From Flavobacterium faecale (lineage in GTDB: Bacteria; Bacteroidota; Bacteroidia; Flavobacteriales; Flavobacteriaceae), in contig NZ_CP020918.1 of the NCBI RefSeq assembly GCF_003076455.1, forward strand, positions 1,116,001 through 1,180,000: 64,000 nucleotides of DNA. The letters are read 5' to 3'. The position numbers and the translations under genes were made by a program. Positions within the stretch are counted from its first letter, which is position 1. Each line of letters starts with the position of its first letter. A model generated the notes under the pieces. It did not search any database, was not told the DNA's origin, and saw nothing but the letters and a program-made list of their open reading frames with translations. Below, in pieces: positions 2,878 through 7,800 of the stretch.

Positions 2878-2951
2878 TCCTTCTTAGCTCAGTTGGTTAG
2901 AGCATCTGACTGTTAATCAGAGGGTCCTTGGTTCGAGCCCAAGAGAGGGAG
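2878..2951 (+). tRNA. tRNA-Asn (anticodon GTT), copy A
   Basis: A 74-nt cloverleaf can be drawn in full. The acceptor stem TCCTTCT pairs with AGAGGGA (one G-T pair), the D stem is GCTC/GAGC, and the anticodon stem TCTGA/TCAGA encloses the loop C-T-G-T-T-A-A with anticodon GTT at 2912-2914. The T stem CTTGG/CCAAG has loop TTCGAGC, and the discriminator base is G. CCA is not encoded. This is the first member of a tandem array of tRNA-Asn-like units. Confidence 0.95.
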
Positions 2952-2955
2952 CTAC

Positions 2956-2986
2956 AAAAAATCCAGTTTCTGAAACTGGATTTTTT
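2956..2986 (+). terminator. Intrinsic terminator after tRNA-Asn copy A
   Basis: AAAAAATCCAGTT pairs with AACTGGATTTTTT around a short loop and ends in six T. A similar hairpin follows copies B, C, D and F. Confidence 0.8.
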
Positions 2987-3031
2987 AATTTTTATGGAGA
3001 CGTATATCTCCTTTGTTGTACATATATAGTT

Positions 3032-3105
3032 TCCTTCTTAGCTCAGTTGGTTAGAGCATCTGACTGTTAATCAGAGGGTCCTTGGTTCGAGCCCAAGAGA
3101 GGGAG
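3032..3105 (+). tRNA. tRNA-Asn (anticodon GTT), copy B
   Basis: Identical over all 74 nt to copy A, with the same cloverleaf and anticodon GTT at 3066-3068. It begins 154 nt after copy A. No separate good promoter is visible, so it may depend on read-through past the copy A terminator or on a weak promoter in the 80-nt spacer. Confidence 0.95.
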
Positions 3106-3106
3106 C

Positions 3107-3139
3107 AAAAAAAATCCAGTTTTACGACTGGATTTTTTG
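3107..3139 (+). terminator. Intrinsic terminator after tRNA-Asn copy B
   Basis: AAAAAATCCAGT at 3109-3120 pairs with ACTGGATTTTTT at 3127-3138 across a TTTACG loop. The same hairpin recurs after decayed copies C (3263-3295), D (3432-3464) and F (4008-4040), showing that tRNA plus terminator was amplified as a unit. Confidence 0.8.
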
Positions 3140-3174
3140 TTTTTAATTCAAATTGGTTTTTTTTCTCAGTGGTA

Positions 3175-3261
3175 TATCTCTTAGCTCAGTTGGTTAAAAC
3201 ATCTGACTGTTAATCAGAGTCCCGATAGCTATCGGGATTGGTTCGAGCCCAAGAGAGGGAG
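3175..3261 (+). pseudogene. tRNA-Asn-like copy C with palindromic insert in the variable region
   Basis: An 87-nt relative of copies A and B. The anticodon arm with GTT is intact. The acceptor 5' strand is now TATCTCT, leaving one A-G mismatch and one wobble; the D stem is broken (GCTC against AAAC); and the variable region is replaced by the palindrome TCCCGATAGCTATCGGGA. The T arm is kept apart from its first base. The extra hairpin would protrude as a long variable arm. Non-function is inferred from the lost D stem. The usual terminator follows at 3263-3295. Confidence 0.75.
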
Positions 3262-3330
3262 CAAAAAAAATCCAGTTTTACGACTGGATTTTTTGTTTTT
3301 AATTCAAATTGGTTTTTTTTCTCAGTGGTA

Positions 3331-3430
3331 TATCTCTTAGCTCAGTTGGTTAGAGCATCTGACTGTTAATGATCCCGATTGCTATCGGGGCGAATAGCTA
3401 TCGGGATTGGTTCGAGCCCAAGAGAGGGAG
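3331..3430 (+). pseudogene. tRNA-Asn-like copy D with longer hairpin insert
   Basis: 100 nt. The 5' half through the GTT anticodon loop matches the intact genes, with a restored D stem, but the 3' strand of the anticodon stem is lost. It is followed by a hairpin (about 3372-3408) whose arms ATCCCGATTGCTAT and ATAGCTATCGGGAT differ by one base around a CGGGGCGA loop. The T arm and 3' acceptor strand follow intact, then the shared terminator at 3432-3464. Confidence 0.75.
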
Positions 3431-3500
3431 CAAAAAAAATCCAGTTTTACGACTGGATTTTTTGTTTTTAATTCAAATTGGTTTTTTTTTCTCAGTAGTA

Positions 3501-3600
3501 TATCTCTTGGCTCAGTTGGTTAGAGTATCTGATTGTTAATCATCCCGATTGCTATCGGGGCGAATAGCTATCGGGATTGGTTCGAGCCCAAGAGAGGGAG
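3501..3600 (+). pseudogene. tRNA-Asn-like copy E with hairpin insert
   Basis: Same 100-nt design as copy D, with further substitutions (TTGGCTC at the start of the D arm, GAGTAT after it, GATTGTTAAT in the anticodon arm). Its 3' end abuts a different terminator and then a GIY-YIG ORF instead of the terminator seen after the other copies. Confidence 0.75.
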
Positions 3601-3608
3601 CAAATTAG

Positions 3609-3636
3609 AAAAGCCTGACAGTGATGTTGGGCTTTT
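3609..3636 (+). terminator. Terminator between tRNA-like copy E and the GIY-YIG gene
   Basis: AAAAGCCTGACA and TGTTGGGCTTTT can pair around GTGA. The same segment downstream of copy G is split by the IS1182-like element. Confidence 0.6.
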
Positions 3637-3657
3637 TGCATTTCTAAAAAGATATTT

Positions 3658-3945
3658 ATGAATATAGTCTACATTCTTTTTTCAGAAAAACTAAATAAGT
3701 TCTATACTGGGTTTACGGAGAATCTACAGGAAAGATTGCTATTTCATCAAAATGCTGAATCTAGGAAGTTCACTTATAATGCAGATGATTGGTCTGTGTT
3801 CTTAACAATTGAATGTGTTTCAAAATCACAAGGTTTAAAGATTGAAGCTCAGATAAAATCAATGAAAAGTCAGGTTTACATTCGAAATTTAAAACTATAT
3901 CCTGAAATGATTGAAAAACTACATCAAAAATATTCTGACTGTTAG
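3658..3945 (+). CDS. Small GIY-YIG nuclease-family protein, copy 1 (3' end fused to a tRNA fragment)
   Basis: 95 residues, essentially one GIY-YIG domain: V-Y-I-L at 4-7 with Tyr5, F-Y-T-G at 16-19 with Tyr17, Arg26 in L-Q-E-R-L, His30, and the metal-binding Glu63 in K-I-E-A-Q-I-K. These are the expected catalytic positions of UPF0213-type GIY-YIG proteins, whose cellular role is mostly unknown. The last codons (Y-S-D-C-stop) are written by the anticodon arm of a tRNA-Asn-like fragment; the paralogue at 7467-7760 instead ends Y-S-D-F-Q-S. Before that break the two copies differ by six synonymous and three non-synonymous changes, suggesting selection on the protein. No promoter is obvious. Confidence 0.8.
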   Translation: MNIVYILFSEKLNKFYTGFTENLQERLLFHQNAESRKFTYNADDWSVFLTIECVSKSQGLKIEAQIKSMKSQVYIRNLKLYPEMIEKLHQKYSDC

Positions 3946-4006
3946 TCATCCTGATTGCTATCGGGGCGAATAGCTATCGGGATTGGTTCGAGCCCAAGAG
4001 AGGGAG
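3934..4006 (+). pseudogene. tRNA-Asn-like 3' fragment F overlapping the GIY-YIG stop
   Basis: Starts at TCTGACTGTTAG, equivalent to the anticodon arm, and continues through the hairpin insert, T arm and 3' acceptor strand, ending at G4006. The 5' half of the tRNA is missing and is replaced by the GIY-YIG coding region. The shared terminator follows at 4008-4040. Confidence 0.7.
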
Positions 4007-4075
4007 CAAAAAAAATCCAGTTTTACGACTGGATTTTTTGTTTTAATTCAAATTGGTTTTTTTTTCTCAGTGGTA

Positions 4076-4163
4076 TATCTCTTAGCTCAGTTGGTTAGAG
4101 CATCTGACTGTTAGTCATCCCGATTACTATCGGGGCGAATAGCTATCGGGATTGGTTCGAGCC
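4076..4163 (+). pseudogene. tRNA-Asn-like copy G, 5' part, interrupted by the IS4-like element
   Basis: Contains the acceptor 5' strand, D arm, GTT-like anticodon loop and hairpin insert, then stops inside the T arm at GGTTCGAGCC, where the insertion sequence begins. Its 3' remainder lies at 5627-5648. Confidence 0.75.
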
Positions 4164-5626
4164 CAATGTCATTAAGTTAAGGTTTTACATAGCTGATTAA
4201 TAGTTATTTAATTGGTTTTAAAATATCAATTCTATAGTATTTTTCGTATATTTATACTGTAAAATATATAGTTTTGAATATGCCAAAGAACTCAATTGCG
4301 ATAGTTGAAATACTAAAAGAAGTGATATTTAGTGATAAAATAAGAATTGAATTTAAAATGAATGATAAAGATTTTAGTCGAAAACGTAAACAGCCTTTTG
4401 GAGAAGTTTTACTTTTCATGTTCAATTTGTTGAGAAAAAGTTTGGCAATAGAAATTGATAGTTTTATAAATCATCTTAATTCAAAACTCGAATCCAAGCC
4501 TATTAAAAATTTCACTAAAAGTGCTTTTGTTCAGAAAAGACAAAAGATAAATCCAGCGGTTTTTAAATATTTATCGAGAGTAATTATGGAAAACACTTAT
4601 GTTGAAAGAAATATAAATGTCCAACTATTTTATGGTTATAGACTCCTTGCAGTTGATGGTTCTATGATTACTCTACCCTATACAGAGAATTTAAAAAATG
4701 TATTTGGAGTATCAAAAAACAACACTAAAACAGTTCTAGTGCAAGGAAGAGCTTCTGTTTTGTATGACGTACTGAATCGTCTCGCATTGGATTCTTCGTT
4801 GAATAATTCAGCATTGGGAGAAAGACAATTGGCATTGAAACATTCCGATTATTGGGCCAAGAACGATTTGATTATATATGATAGAGGCTACGTGGGTTAT
4901 GATTTTCAGTATGAACATTTTAAAAAGAATATAGATTATTTAATCAGAACAAGTCTTACCCATAGTGACCTAATAAAAGATTTTGTAAAAACCAAGAAAC
5001 AATCAGCCATAGTTGATTTATTTCCAAATCAAAAACACGCTATAGTTGATAAGCAATACACAAAAGAGACATCGCTAAAAGTTCGATTAATTAGAATCGT
5101 TTTGTCTAATGGAGAAATTGAAGTTTTGATGACATCTTTATTGGATAGTCAAATTTTTCCAGCCAGTATATTTAAAGAATTATACTTTTTGAGATGGGGG
5201 ATTGAAACATTTTACGACGAGTTGAAAAACAAACTCAAATTGGAATACTTCACGGGTTATTCCAAAGCAAGTATAGAACAGGACTTTTTCTGCACGATAT
5301 TCATAAGTAATTTGCAATCGACCATTGTAAATGACTTACAAGATGACTTAAAATTAAAGAACAAAAACACAAAACTGGATTACAAGATCAACACAAACTT
5401 GTCTTACGGTTTTTTAAAAAATAGAATACTAGAGTTGCTTTTTAAAGAAGCTCCTTTAGATGAAGTATTCGAAGAATTAGAAAATCTATTTCTTAAAAAT
5501 ACAGTTCCAATTAGATTAAATCGGAATAACAAACGAAAAGTAGGTAAATATCTCAATCGAAAAAGACCTTTAGTACTTAAAAATCAGAAAGATGCAATAT
5601 GAAAATTGCTTAACTTAATGACATTG
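4164..5626 (+). mobile_element. IS4-family insertion sequence, complete
   Basis: A 1463-bp element bounded by perfect 18-bp inverted repeats: CAATGTCATTAAGTTAAG at 4164-4181 and its complement at 5609-5626. It is flanked by a 10-bp direct repeat GGTTCGAGCC (4154-4163 and 5627-5636), consistent with target-site duplication. The duplicated target is the T arm of a tRNA-Asn-like copy. One intact transposase ORF fills the element. Intact ends, ORF and duplication point to a recent insertion. Confidence 0.9.
4280..5602 (+). CDS. IS4-family transposase (DDE)
   Basis: 440 residues from the ATG at 4280. The DDE catalytic core is visible: first Asp in L-L-A-V-D-G-S-M, second Asp in L-I-I-Y-D-R-G-Y-V-G-Y-D, and the glutamate in L-Y-F-L-R-W-G-I-E-T-F-Y-D-E-L-K, which exactly fits the IS4 signature Y-(2)-R-(3)-E-(6)-K. 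It catalyses cut-and-paste transposition of its own element by binding the 18-bp ends. The frame is open from just inside the left end to just before the right end, with no internal stop or frameshift, so it is probably active. Expression most likely uses a promoter in the 98 bp between the left repeat and the ATG. Confidence 0.92.
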   Translation: MPKNSIAIVEILKEVIFSDKIRIEFKMNDKDFSRKRKQPFGEVLLFMFNLLRKSLAIEIDSFINHLNSKLESKPIKNFTKSAFVQKRQKINPAVFKYLSRVIMENTYVERNINVQLFYGYRLLAVDGSMITLPYTENLKNVFGVSKNNTKTVLVQGRASVLYDVLNRLALDSSLNNSALGERQLALKHSDYWAKNDLIIYDRGYVGYDFQYEHFKKNIDYLIRTSLTHSDLIKDFVKTKKQSAIVDLFPNQKHAIVDKQYTKETSLKVRLIRIVLSNGEIEVLMTSLLDSQIFPASIFKELYFLRWGIETFYDELKNKLKLEYFTGYSKASIEQDFFCTIFISNLQSTIVNDLQDDLKLKNKNTKLDYKINTNLSYGFLKNRILELLFKEAPLDEVFEELENLFLKNTVPIRLNRNNKRKVGKYLNRKRPLVLKNQKDAI

Positions 5627-5648
5627 GGTTCGAGCCCAAGAGAGGGAG
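5627..5648 (+). pseudogene. tRNA-Asn-like copy G, 3' remainder
   Basis: GGTTCGAGCC plus the 3' acceptor strand and discriminator G, continuing the copy interrupted at 4163. The first ten bases are the target-site duplication. Confidence 0.75.
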
Positions 5649-5729
5649 CAAATTAGAAAAGCCTGACAGTGATGGAGGGCACTGAAAAACATCGCATATT
5701 TTGATTATCATCGTTTTTTAGACAATAAA

Positions 5730-5773
5730 AAAACGCTTGTAACAGGAGTTATATAATCCGTTGCAAGCGTTTT
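5730..5773 (-). terminator. Hairpin downstream of the IS1182-like transposase
   Basis: AAAACGCTTGTAAC at 5730-5743 pairs with GTTGCAAGCGTTTT at 5760-5773, with one mismatch. It lies inside the IS, just past the transposase stop on the minus strand. Confidence 0.55.
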
Positions 5774-5867
5774 CCTTTTTAATCTTGATTTTTAATGTTG
5801 GTTCAATAAGGCTATTTTGAGTTTAGCTAGAGTCATTTTGAGTAATGCAGCAGTAGCTTTCATTTTT

Positions 5868-7316
5868 CTACATTAATTTGAGTATTCTTTTTAAGTTGAC
5901 TGCGAAAATTGCTATTGCACCTTGCATTTGCATATTGGTAATGCCATATGATATTGCTCTATCATAACCATGTACATTTTTCAACTCACTATTTTTCGCT
6001 TCTATTTTATATCGATGTTTTGCTTTTTCTTTGTAATAGTCAGTTTCTTGAAAGCTGATTTGTTCTTGGTGTAAGTCCGATTTTATCGACACCGAATATG
6101 TTTTTGTCTTGGATCCTTCTTTATAACAACCCTCTTTTAAAGAGCAGGTCTTACATTTTTCCACATCAAAATAGTAGGTTTGTATTTGATTGGTTCCAAC
6201 ATTTTTTTTACCTTGGCGAGCCTTTCGTATGGCCATATGACCAGCAGTGCAAACAAATCTATCGGCATCTTTATTATAGTCAAATTTATCTTCGTCTTTT
6301 CTAGCTCCTTGTGCTATTGTAACATTTAGTCTGGCTACCACTTTAATATTTTGCTCCCTTGTGAGTTTGAGATTTTCTTTTCCTGTATAAGCTCCATCCC
6401 CAATAATAGTATCAACATCAATTCCGTTTTTTTGACTAATCGCTAAAAGTCTAGGTAATTCTGGTCCATCCCCTTTTTCACCTGATGTGACTACAGCCGC
6501 TGTAATGATGCGCTCCTCGGTCATAGCTAAGTGAGTCTTATATCCAAAGAAAGAACTATCAGCAGATTTATGACCCGTTTTAGCATCTGCATCTTTTGAT
6601 AAGGTAAAATTTTCTTGAGTGTCTTCTACAGTTTCTTTGAGTAGATTTAATTTCTCTTTCACAGCTGGAATCGAACTTATTGACGGCTCATTTTCAATGC
6701 GTTTTTCCAACTCTTTACAATAAGCAAGTTCCTTCTCTAAGTCATTGTCTGTATTTTTTTCAGGCATATGTTCTTTGAATTCCTGCTCAAAGCTGTATAC
6801 TGTTTTTCGCAGTAGCTTGGAACGTTCTCTCAATACATCGATGGCTAAAAATGGATTGGATCTTGATAAAGTATGTGTGGCATCAACGATGATAGACTTC
6901 GAACGAATAATACCTTTTTCGATAGCAATGGTGACTGTTTTGTTTATCAACAGATTTAATAGGTCGGTATCCTTTAAACGTAGTTTTCTAAATTTTGTTA
7001 ACGAACTCGGATTGATAACATCGTCTTCTGGATTCATATCCAAAAAATATTTGAAGGACATATCGTATTGAGAACGCTCCACGACATCAATATCGGAAAC
7101 AGTATAGATTGTTTTAAGTAGTAAATACTTAAACATACGAACGGGACTTTCTGCCATTCGCCCATTATTGGGACAGTACTTATTTAACAACTCATCGTAA
7201 ATGAATGAAAAATCAATCAAATCATTAATTTTTCTTAATAGATTTTCTTTTGGAACTATTAAATCATACAACGAAGAATACTCGCTGAATTGTATTGTTT
7301 GTTGTTGTACTAACAT
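5868..7316 (-). CDS. IS1182-family transposase
   Basis: 482 residues, the usual length for the family. The N-terminal part (about 15-115) has the DUF772-like block with R-M-F-K-Y-L-L-L-K and D-V-I-N-P-S-S-L-T-K-F-R. The catalytic region has the first Asp in S-I-I-V-D-A-T-H and the second in D-T-I-I-G-D-G-A-Y-T-G-K, then a Cys-containing insert (V-E-K-C-K-T-C-S-L-K-E-G-C), and a C-terminal A-K-N-S-E-L-K-N-V-H-G-Y with the glutamate. No stop or frameshift interrupts it, so the element is probably competent. The plus-strand reading frames inside this region are shadows. Confidence 0.92.
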   Translation of the reverse strand: MLVQQQTIQFSEYSSLYDLIVPKENLLRKINDLIDFSFIYDELLNKYCPNNGRMAESPVRMFKYLLLKTIYTVSDIDVVERSQYDMSFKYFLDMNPEDDVINPSSLTKFRKLRLKDTDLLNLLINKTVTIAIEKGIIRSKSIIVDATHTLSRSNPFLAIDVLRERSKLLRKTVYSFEQEFKEHMPEKNTDNDLEKELAYCKELEKRIENEPSISSIPAVKEKLNLLKETVEDTQENFTLSKDADAKTGHKSADSSFFGYKTHLAMTEERIITAAVVTSGEKGDGPELPRLLAISQKNGIDVDTIIGDGAYTGKENLKLTREQNIKVVARLNVTIAQGARKDEDKFDYNKDADRFVCTAGHMAIRKARQGKKNVGTNQIQTYYFDVEKCKTCSLKEGCYKEGSKTKTYSVSIKSDLHQEQISFQETDYYKEKAKHRYKIEAKNSELKNVHGYDRAISYGITNMQMQGAIAIFAVNLKRILKLM

Positions 7317-7351
7317 CTAAAAAACACTTATAATTAGATTTAAATATAAGA

Positions 7352-7389
7352 AAAAAGGAGTAGAAATCCATAGATATCTACTCCTTTTT
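7352..7389. terminator. Hairpin upstream of the IS1182-like transposase, inside the IS end
   Basis: AAAAAGGAGTAGA and TCTACTCCTTTTT form a perfect 13-bp stem between the right IS end and the transposase start. It could stop outside transcription from entering the element, a common IS safeguard; this role is inference. Confidence 0.55.
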
Positions 7390-7466
7390 ATGTGTCAATT
7401 TATTAGAAAGACTTTTTCAGTGCCCTCCAGTGATGTCGGGCTTTTTGCATCTGTAAAAAAATATTT

Positions 7467-7760
7467 ATGAATATAGTCTACATTCTTTTTTCAGAAAAAC
7501 TAAATAAGTTTTATACTGGGTTCACGGAGAATCTACAGGAAAGATTGTTATTTCATCAAAATGCTGAATCTAGGAAGTTCACTTATAATGCAGATGATTG
7601 GTCTGTGTTCTTAACCATTGAATGTGTCTCAAAATCACAAGGTTTAAAGATTGAAGCTCACATAAAATCAATGAAAAGTCAGGTTTACATTCGAAATTTA
7701 AAACTATACCCTGAAATGATTGAAAAACTACAAAAAAAATATTCTGACTTTCAGTCTTAA
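7467..7760 (+). CDS. Small GIY-YIG nuclease-family protein, copy 2
   Basis: 97 residues, almost identical to the copy at 3658-3945, with the same GIY-YIG residues Tyr5, Tyr17, Arg26, His30 and Glu63. It appears to keep the original C-terminus (K-K-Y-S-D-F-Q-S) followed at once by a strong terminator. Upstream sequence back to the IS end also matches that of copy 1, so [tRNA-like unit - terminator - GIY-YIG] was duplicated as a block before the IS elements landed. The biological role of such stand-alone GIY-YIG proteins is unknown; a DNA-nicking function is only an inference from the family. Confidence 0.82.
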   Translation: MNIVYILFSEKLNKFYTGFTENLQERLLFHQNAESRKFTYNADDWSVFLTIECVSKSQGLKIEAHIKSMKSQVYIRNLKLYPEMIEKLQKKYSDFQS

Positions 7761-7800
7761 CGAAAAAAGCCATTCAATTTCTTGAATGGCTTTTTTCGTT
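7759..7800 (+). terminator. Strong terminator after GIY-YIG copy 2
   Basis: A perfect 19-bp stem (7759-7777 with 7782-7800) around a TTTC loop, with A and T tracts on both sides, so it could work in both directions. Confidence 0.85.

Follow-up and report, generated by a model that had tools for sequence, protein, structure and literature searches.

Small GIY-YIG nuclease genes tied to tRNA genes in Bacteroidota, candidate selfish elements that leave their tRNA sites whole

What is a gene for a very small nuclease doing among damaged copies of a tRNA gene? The question is raised by a 64,000-nucleotide stretch of the Flavobacterium faecale genome (RefSeq assembly GCF_003076455.1, contig NZ_CP020918.1, positions 1,116,001 to 1,180,000; hereafter the window), in which positions 2878-7800 form an array of 2 intact tRNA-Asn genes, a run of further tRNA-Asn units that are damaged, and 2 copies of a GIY-YIG open reading frame (ORF). 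The initial annotation tied both ORFs to tRNA-Asn-like units, with which the coordinates and PF01541 matches agree, and its idea of a stand-alone nuclease associated with tRNA 3' ends is strengthened by a marked enrichment of the family beside tRNAs in other genomes. We consider it rather probable that these genes are chromosomal, free-standing, homing-endonuclease-like selfish elements for which tRNA genes serve as sites and stay whole, and the family has the look of a minimal selfish DNA element of a kind not yet described.

The linkage to tRNA genes extends well beyond the window. Family members were sought with the protein alone, the phylum profile itself having been built from tRNA-linked members only, and loci are referred to by L numbers. 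A profile of the source-genome copies matched 54 of 61 genomes of the genus, source genome included, and a profile of linked copies matched 228 of 394 genomes and 117 of 171 genera of the phylum at E <= 1e-12, these being profile matches for which tRNA linkage was checked at 70 phylum loci only; a single-protein search of genome contigs returned 5 loci. At the best locus per genome in the genus, outside the source genome, the fetched stretch held an intact same-strand upstream tRNA in 24 of 29 cases and none in L034, L043, L053, L058, and L059. The 94 genus loci examined, some of which overlap one another, divide into 46 with a same-strand upstream tRNA (36 to 341 bp away), 8 with fragments only, and 40 with neither, and nearly all of these last 40 are contained in one clade of 41 tree rows without a tRNA (SH-like approximate likelihood ratio test, SH-aLRT, 95), which serves as a natural control. 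Across the phylum, an intact tRNA lay upstream on the same strand, at 1 to 189 bp, in 55 of 70 loci, or 68 of 70 counting fragments, the two without either being window copy 2 (L163) and L216. These 70 loci were the 30 best per genome and 40 picked by hand among the listed matches, mainly from other families and with their surroundings unseen when chosen; 10 came from the genus itself, the window copy among them, and outside the genus the count was 48 of 60. No antisense tRNA was present in the fetched stretches of the 136 tabulated genus ORFs or at any of the 70 phylum loci, and linkage expected by chance from position in the source genome was 0.16% within 300 bp and 0.65% within 1.5 kb. A tRNA call also stands directly or closely behind the ORF in L186, L194, L208, L210, L212, L215, and L220. 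The unlinked clade adjoins CTTCGACAAGCTCAG-type palindromes instead of tRNAs in L014 (4700-6500) and L059 (around 1500), and may be a second, palindrome-linked branch.

Protein clades largely follow the identity of the neighboring tRNA. On the genus tree, nine isotype labels can be accommodated with 10 changes, where 8 is the least possible and shuffled labels average 74.4; here Met (14 rows), Phe (8), Ala (7), and Arg (2) each occupy one side of a supported branch (98 to 100), and Asn, Asp, Val, and Pro need two changes apiece. The phylum tree, with 14 labels, needs 29 changes against a minimum of 13 and a shuffled value of 131.4, and 0 of 200 shuffles were as low; there Phe, Gly, and Ser (2 rows) each form a single group, and Met takes 3 changes. 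Near-copies among the rows add to this clustering. Both trees came from a quick search (92 and 86 columns) and omit rows with a domain shorter than 65 amino acids; the genus tree reduces 136 ORFs to 124 rows, with L088 omitted as a repeat, and the phylum tree takes one row per new locus. Labels were assigned by hand at 20 loci in the genus tree (18 with tree rows) and at 15 more in the phylum tree, with one further omitted; in the phylum tree, L133 was relabelled Asp (tRNA-Asp 216 bp upstream) and L027 was kept as "none." We note that the Asn-clade copies L028 and L029, in metagenome-assembled genome (MAG) records named Crocinitomicaceae and Chitinophaga, have 65-66% identity to the window copy, higher than the 58-61% of two named Flavobacterium records, a closeness that may reflect either transfer or mis-binning of the MAGs.

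The unit has a recurring anatomy: an intact tRNA, a terminator, the GIY-YIG ORF, and then, mostly, a second tRNA 3' part in which a foreign hairpin replaces a stretch, so that the displaced copy carries the swapped stretch while the upstream tRNA stays intact. Downstream tRNA words were found behind the ORF in 93 of 103 first-unit loci with an intact tRNA, and in these 93, sampled at every third tRNA position, the displaced part keeps the acceptor 5' strand in 0-8%, the anticodon arm in 17-34%, and the T-arm and acceptor 3' strand in 72-81%. In the 57 loci that were anchored on both sides, each isotype has its usual place of replacement: for Ala, Arg, and Val this is mostly about positions 28-45, in the anticodon arm; in 6 of 9 Asn loci the replaced stretch begins at 46; in 4 of 5 Met loci it spans about 38-49; in 4 of 4 Gly loci it extends into the T-arm; and in Pro it is variable. 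Around the ORF end, the median longest stem is 7 versus 4.7 in shuffled sequence (139 linked junctions), and stems of at least 6 occur in 125 of 139 linked versus 36 of 86 other junctions, some of the longest stems being terminator hairpins. A specific form, TCCCG-N0-22-CGGGA, is present in 69 of 139 linked junctions, 2 of 32 with an upstream fragment only, and 0 of 54 unlinked ones, compared with 0 of 139, 2 of 32, and 2 of 54 within the respective ORFs and 19 of 13,900 shuffles of linked junctions. The arms of anchored inserts pair mildly better than permuted partners (4.29 versus a mean of 3.82 and a maximum of 4.16 in 200 permutations), only mildly because many hairpins share TCCCG/CGGGA, and all six end bases are paired in 22 of 49 distinct inserts. 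In L050 (1501-1843) the GIY-YIG frame continues into tRNA-Val fragment sequence and is longer than its relatives, and in L060 (1256-1860), behind a tRNA-Asp, the ORF is flanked by a repeat that by eye is not tRNA-like, yet bears a hairpin.

These units grow in tandem and come and go at conserved sites. Tandem Repeats Finder reported a period of 350-394 bp in 8 of 10 arrays or suspected arrays examined, for example 5.1 copies of 350 bp at 99% and 6.1 copies of 358 bp; the unlinked copy L067 gave a 101-bp array and L066 none. Presence and absence at one site were seen among relatives for both the rseP/tRNA-Asn and the trxB/tRNA-Pro loci. Read at 16 loci of relatives (L233-L248), the best match to the rseP/tRNA-Asn region has the tRNA and terminator with no ORF in the stretch in 11 (the stretches of L240 and L245 end at a contig end) and is filled in 3 (L238, L246 with a broken frame, and L248); L242 has a hairpin-bearing tRNA part without an ORF, and L247 shows no tRNA. 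Next to rseP (68-100% identity), the source genome, L046, and L166 carry the main Asn subclade, and L118 and L120 carry the other, with six more Asn loci left uncounted because their rseP matches were only 32-42%. Similarly, tRNA-Pro is directly followed by trxB, with the site empty, in six loci (L077, L082, L084, L096, L097, and L100), and the same site is occupied by one Pro clade in the source genome and L049 and by an unrelated one in L063; the L063-type clade also occurs where trxB points away (L062, L079, L126, L130, and L139). That one tRNA site is filled by different clades and empty elsewhere suggests repeated, independent filling. Two tRNA-Pro loci beside trxB, L074 and L095, have a second tRNA 3' end about 170-180 bp downstream with no ORF between, and these are likely relics.

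The protein itself is maintained by selection. The two window ORFs differ by 6 synonymous and 3 nonsynonymous changes over 93 codons (dS 0.119, dN 0.0135), as originally counted, and the selection surmised from that pair is borne out, as purifying selection, by within-isotype median ratios of nonsynonymous to synonymous divergence (dN/dS) of 0.11-0.21 in the seven isotypes with enough pairs (3 to 47 non-independent pairs per isotype), against 0.36 in the unlinked clade. No pair with dS of 0.05-1.5 reaches a ratio of 1, the highest linked pair being a Pro pair at 0.80. Of the two outcomes that the initial annotation named as refuting its idea, a lack of tRNA enrichment in other genomes and a dN/dS near 1 over many copies, neither was found. 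Y5, Y16, R26, H30, and E63, which we take to be the catalytic residues, are invariant in 16 of 16 alignment rows. A Pfam scan of both window ORFs gave GIY-YIG only, and profile matches led with the UPF0213 structures 1zg2 (E 6.9e-13) and 1ywl, followed by SLX1 (E 3e-4); a structure model (mean predicted local distance difference test score, pLDDT, 88) placed 1zg2, SLX1, 1ywl, and I-TevI at the top Foldseek ranks, every E value lying above 1e-3. As to sequence membership in a homing endonuclease family, 10 of 16 rows match TIGR01453 at E 0.01, with the window copy at 18 of 56 bits, far under the cut-off, and 2 of 16 rows match phrog_314, the window copy not among them.

We propose that the nuclease would break a tRNA gene of its own isotype, and that repair from the element copy would leave a whole tRNA upstream and displace the old tRNA 3' part downstream, so that the host would keep its tRNA. 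The swapped stretch would then show where the nuclease acts and set the displaced copy apart from the target, and exchange between the repeated tRNA 3' parts would yield tandem arrays and ORF-less units. In this the element would behave as free-standing homing endonucleases of the SegB kind do. More tentatively, we suggest a further reading: a GIY-YIG nuclease of 80-100 amino acids, its terminator, and a terminal hairpin replacing a specific tRNA arm could constitute an undescribed class of minimal mobile element, whose separate nuclease lineages, for many tRNA isotypes, would move between same-isotype tRNA genes phylum-wide by hairpin-for-hairpin exchange, rebuilding the host tRNA.

Several observations weigh against the selfish-element interpretation. 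Cleavage, target, and movement are inferred rather than observed, and the intact upstream tRNA retains the presumed target, which leaves self-protection unaccounted for. The excess of 29 changes over the minimum of 13 in the phylum tree indicates real isotype switches, and some of the isotype clustering could come from vertical descent at the individual tRNA loci. The anatomy is also not universal, with 10 of 103 first-unit loci lacking a downstream tRNA match and 70 of 139 linked junctions lacking TCCCG..CGGGA, and the structure, as modelled, shows a bare catalytic domain without a DNA-binding domain. Nor did a phage vehicle emerge: two proteins had no tblastn match in 50,697 phage records, and three proteins gave a single match, at 34%, in viral contigs.

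A host-adapted function, in repair at hairpin-prone tRNA loci or in defence, inherited mainly vertically and frequently lost, would fit the purifying selection, the SLX1-like fold, and the wide spread in the phylum, and 7 of 16 members match PDC-S14, a PADLOC model for candidate defence systems (best E 2e-6), with 3 matching UzuA and 1 JetB. We nonetheless regard such a function as unlikely, since presence at orthologous loci is patchy and one site is filled by different clades, the units grow in tandem and leave ORF-less relics, and the window copy has no PADLOC match at E 0.01.

The matching of nuclease clades to isotypes could instead be read at the RNA level, with the nuclease cutting its cognate tRNA and the downstream tRNA-like RNA, its stretch swapped, acting as an uncleavable decoy in the manner of a type III toxin-antitoxin pair. 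Retention of a tRNA-like part with a stretch replaced and tandem repeats of such parts, as in a Pro array of the source genome, would be expected of such a pair, but no more than 0-8% of the 93 loci retain the acceptor 5' strand, making a full tRNA fold unlikely, terminators lie between the repeats, and the GIY-YIG enzymes from the fold search (SLX1 and I-TevI, together with UvrC) act on DNA, and we therefore find this account quite improbable. The proposal that these are neutral passenger genes, spread with tRNA 3' ends by ordinary tandem duplication at recombination-prone sites, explains the direct repeats and array growth but is very hard to credit given the dN/dS medians of 0.11-0.21, the isotype-clade match, the downstream, same-strand placement, and the recurring hairpin form.

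Three further candidates were rejected: a phage-borne element, with almost nothing in phage records and viral contigs; a plasmid-borne element, for which one protein gave 8 distant plasmid matches, each below 60% identity; and a dispersed family of repetitive extragenic palindromic (REP) elements, with few such palindromes outside arrays in the source genome. CCCGAT..ATCGGG sites in that genome number 24, of which 15 lie in two arrays, 1 between tRNAs, and 8 scattered elsewhere, away from the tRNA arrays.

In the window, where all features are on the plus strand unless stated, the array opens with an intact tRNA-Asn (gtt) at 2878-2952 (ARAGORN; Rfam RF00005, 66.8 bits) and its tandem copy, also tRNA-Asn (gtt), at 3032-3106 (ARAGORN and Rfam). 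The damaged units that follow retain the tRNA 3' part and bear palindromes such as TCCCGATAGCTATCGGGA: the copy at 3175-3262 has this hairpin (3220-3237) in its variable-loop/T-stem region and is still called a tRNA by ARAGORN while falling below the Rfam gathering score, and degenerate units recognized from sequence, both with approximate limits, lie at 3333-3430 (with hairpins) and 3503-3602, the latter immediately 5' of ORF 1. With at most one mismatch, TCCCGATNNNNATCGGGA occurs 4 times in the window, every time in the array, compared with 0.01 expected. A terminator-like sequence, AGAAAAGCCTGACAGTGATGTTGGGCTTTTT (3603-3641; read by eye and outside the computed terminator list), precedes ORF 1 (3658-3945; 95 amino acids, PF01541 E 8e-11), whose stop codon lies within the following tRNA-derived unit, a displaced tRNA-Asn part with hairpins at 3934-4007 that overlaps the ORF end; a terminator-like hairpin from the computed list follows at 4010-4039.

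The initial annotation described the block of tRNA-like unit, terminator, and ORF as occurring twice, which holds for both ORFs and their tRNA-like units; block 2 is not contiguous, being broken by two insertion sequences whose families were assigned by search and whose ends and target duplications were read by eye. An IS4-family element (about 4164-5626; coding sequence 4274-5602) lies within a tRNA-like unit and is bounded by a 10-bp duplication, GGTTCGAGCC, at 4154-4163 and 5627-5636, and an IS1182-family element on the minus strand (about 5675-7427; coding sequence 5868-7316) lies in the block 2 terminator, 5' of ORF 2, with an 8-bp duplication, CAGTGATG, at 5667-5674 and 7428-7435. The tRNA-Asn 3' fragment of block 2 is at 5627-5649, and ORF 2 (7467-7760; 97 amino acids, PF01541 E 7e-11) has its own C terminus and a terminator-like hairpin behind it at 7761-7798 (by eye, outside the computed list). 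Terminator-like sites number 7 versus 2.3 expected, 5 of the 7 behind tRNA-derived units. Both insertion sequences landed in tRNA-array sequence, the IS4-family element in the T-arm of a damaged unit and the IS1182-family element in a terminator stem. Elsewhere the window holds two Flavo-1 RNAs (RF01705; 28664-28752 and 36498-36584).

The end of ORF 1 is indeed read, as Y-S-D-C-stop, from TCTGACTGTTAG, anticodon-arm sequence of the next tRNA-Asn-like unit. Recombination at microhomology had been suggested as the source of this fused end; we reject such a recent accident, because the same ...DC-stop ending running into tRNA anticodon sequence recurs in L041, L028, L029, and L165, loci that include the records named Crocinitomicaceae and Chitinophaga. 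The fused end is therefore a recurring form in the Asn clade, with window copy 2 as the odd one. A strict test, the stop codon lying in an 8-mer common with a same-isotype tRNA, was positive in 31 of 147 linked ORFs versus 1 of 42 labelled "none," so that a stop within the tRNA part is not general.

A protein search found 9 copies of the gene in the source genome: 2 in the Asn array, 2 behind two tRNA-Phe genes, 2 behind two tRNA-Met genes, 1 in a tRNA-Pro array, 1 ending in a tRNA-like fragment that we take for tRNA-Arg, and 1 without a tRNA. The Asn, Phe, and Met copies fall in different protein clades and the Pro and Arg copies in neighboring ones. The Pro array consists of an intact tRNA-Pro followed by repeats of the tRNA-Pro 3' part and terminator, and the spacer of its ORF-less repeats retains, by eye, sequence resembling the first ORF codons, so that these repeats look like internal deletions of the full unit.

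The closest parallel is with phages. SegB of phage T6 is a free-standing GIY-YIG homing endonuclease that reportedly cuts within tRNA genes, is enriched near tRNAs in phages, with no isotype preference reported, and drives tandem amplification of tRNA-Tyr together with its own C-terminally truncated gene (PMC13096335). The Bacteroidota family resembles the T4/T6 SegB system as a stand-alone GIY-YIG nuclease adjoining tRNA genes with similar anatomy, but, unlike phage-borne SegB, it is chromosomal, phylum-wide, and composed of clades mostly tied to one isotype; its protein is about 80-100 amino acids, its displaced tRNA part carries a swapped stretch, and cleavage is only inferred. A search of PubMed Central full text, which leaves most subscription papers and all preprints outside, listed no description of tRNA-linked chromosomal GIY-YIG genes in Bacteroidota.

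Other known systems share single features. Integrative elements use tRNA 3' ends as attachment sites, and the present units resemble them in having a tRNA 3' repeat on both sides of the insert, an upstream tRNA kept whole, and, in some loci, different terminators after the tRNA and the displaced part (by eye; Met loci, L062, and L242), but differ in a unit of about 350 bp, a GIY-YIG nuclease in place of an integrase, and a foreign hairpin in the displaced part; in L062 the 350-bp unit can accommodate the GIY-YIG ORF and nothing more, no separate integrase search having been made. The profile and fold matches liken the nuclease to the catalytic domains of UPF0213, whose entries are termed hypothetical, SLX1, and I-TevI. 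SLX1 acts with a partner and I-TevI carries a DNA-binding tail, absent from the family nuclease. REP elements, associated with RAYT transposases, likewise place a small nuclease gene beside short palindromes, but here the enzyme is GIY-YIG rather than Y1 HUH, the Pfam scan of both window ORFs having returned no Y1 HUH transposase, and the palindromes are mostly tied to tRNA parts.

If the selfish-element interpretation is true, many Bacteroidota harbor very small selfish elements that exploit tRNA genes while keeping them intact. Their presence would account for the runs of damaged tRNA copies seen in these genomes, and tRNA amplification of the SegB type would then occur on chromosomes as well as in phages. 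Hairpin-bearing relics may then record the nuclease's site of action, and the isotype-matched clades would offer a ready-made set of proteins with which to study how some 90 residues can distinguish one tRNA gene from another.

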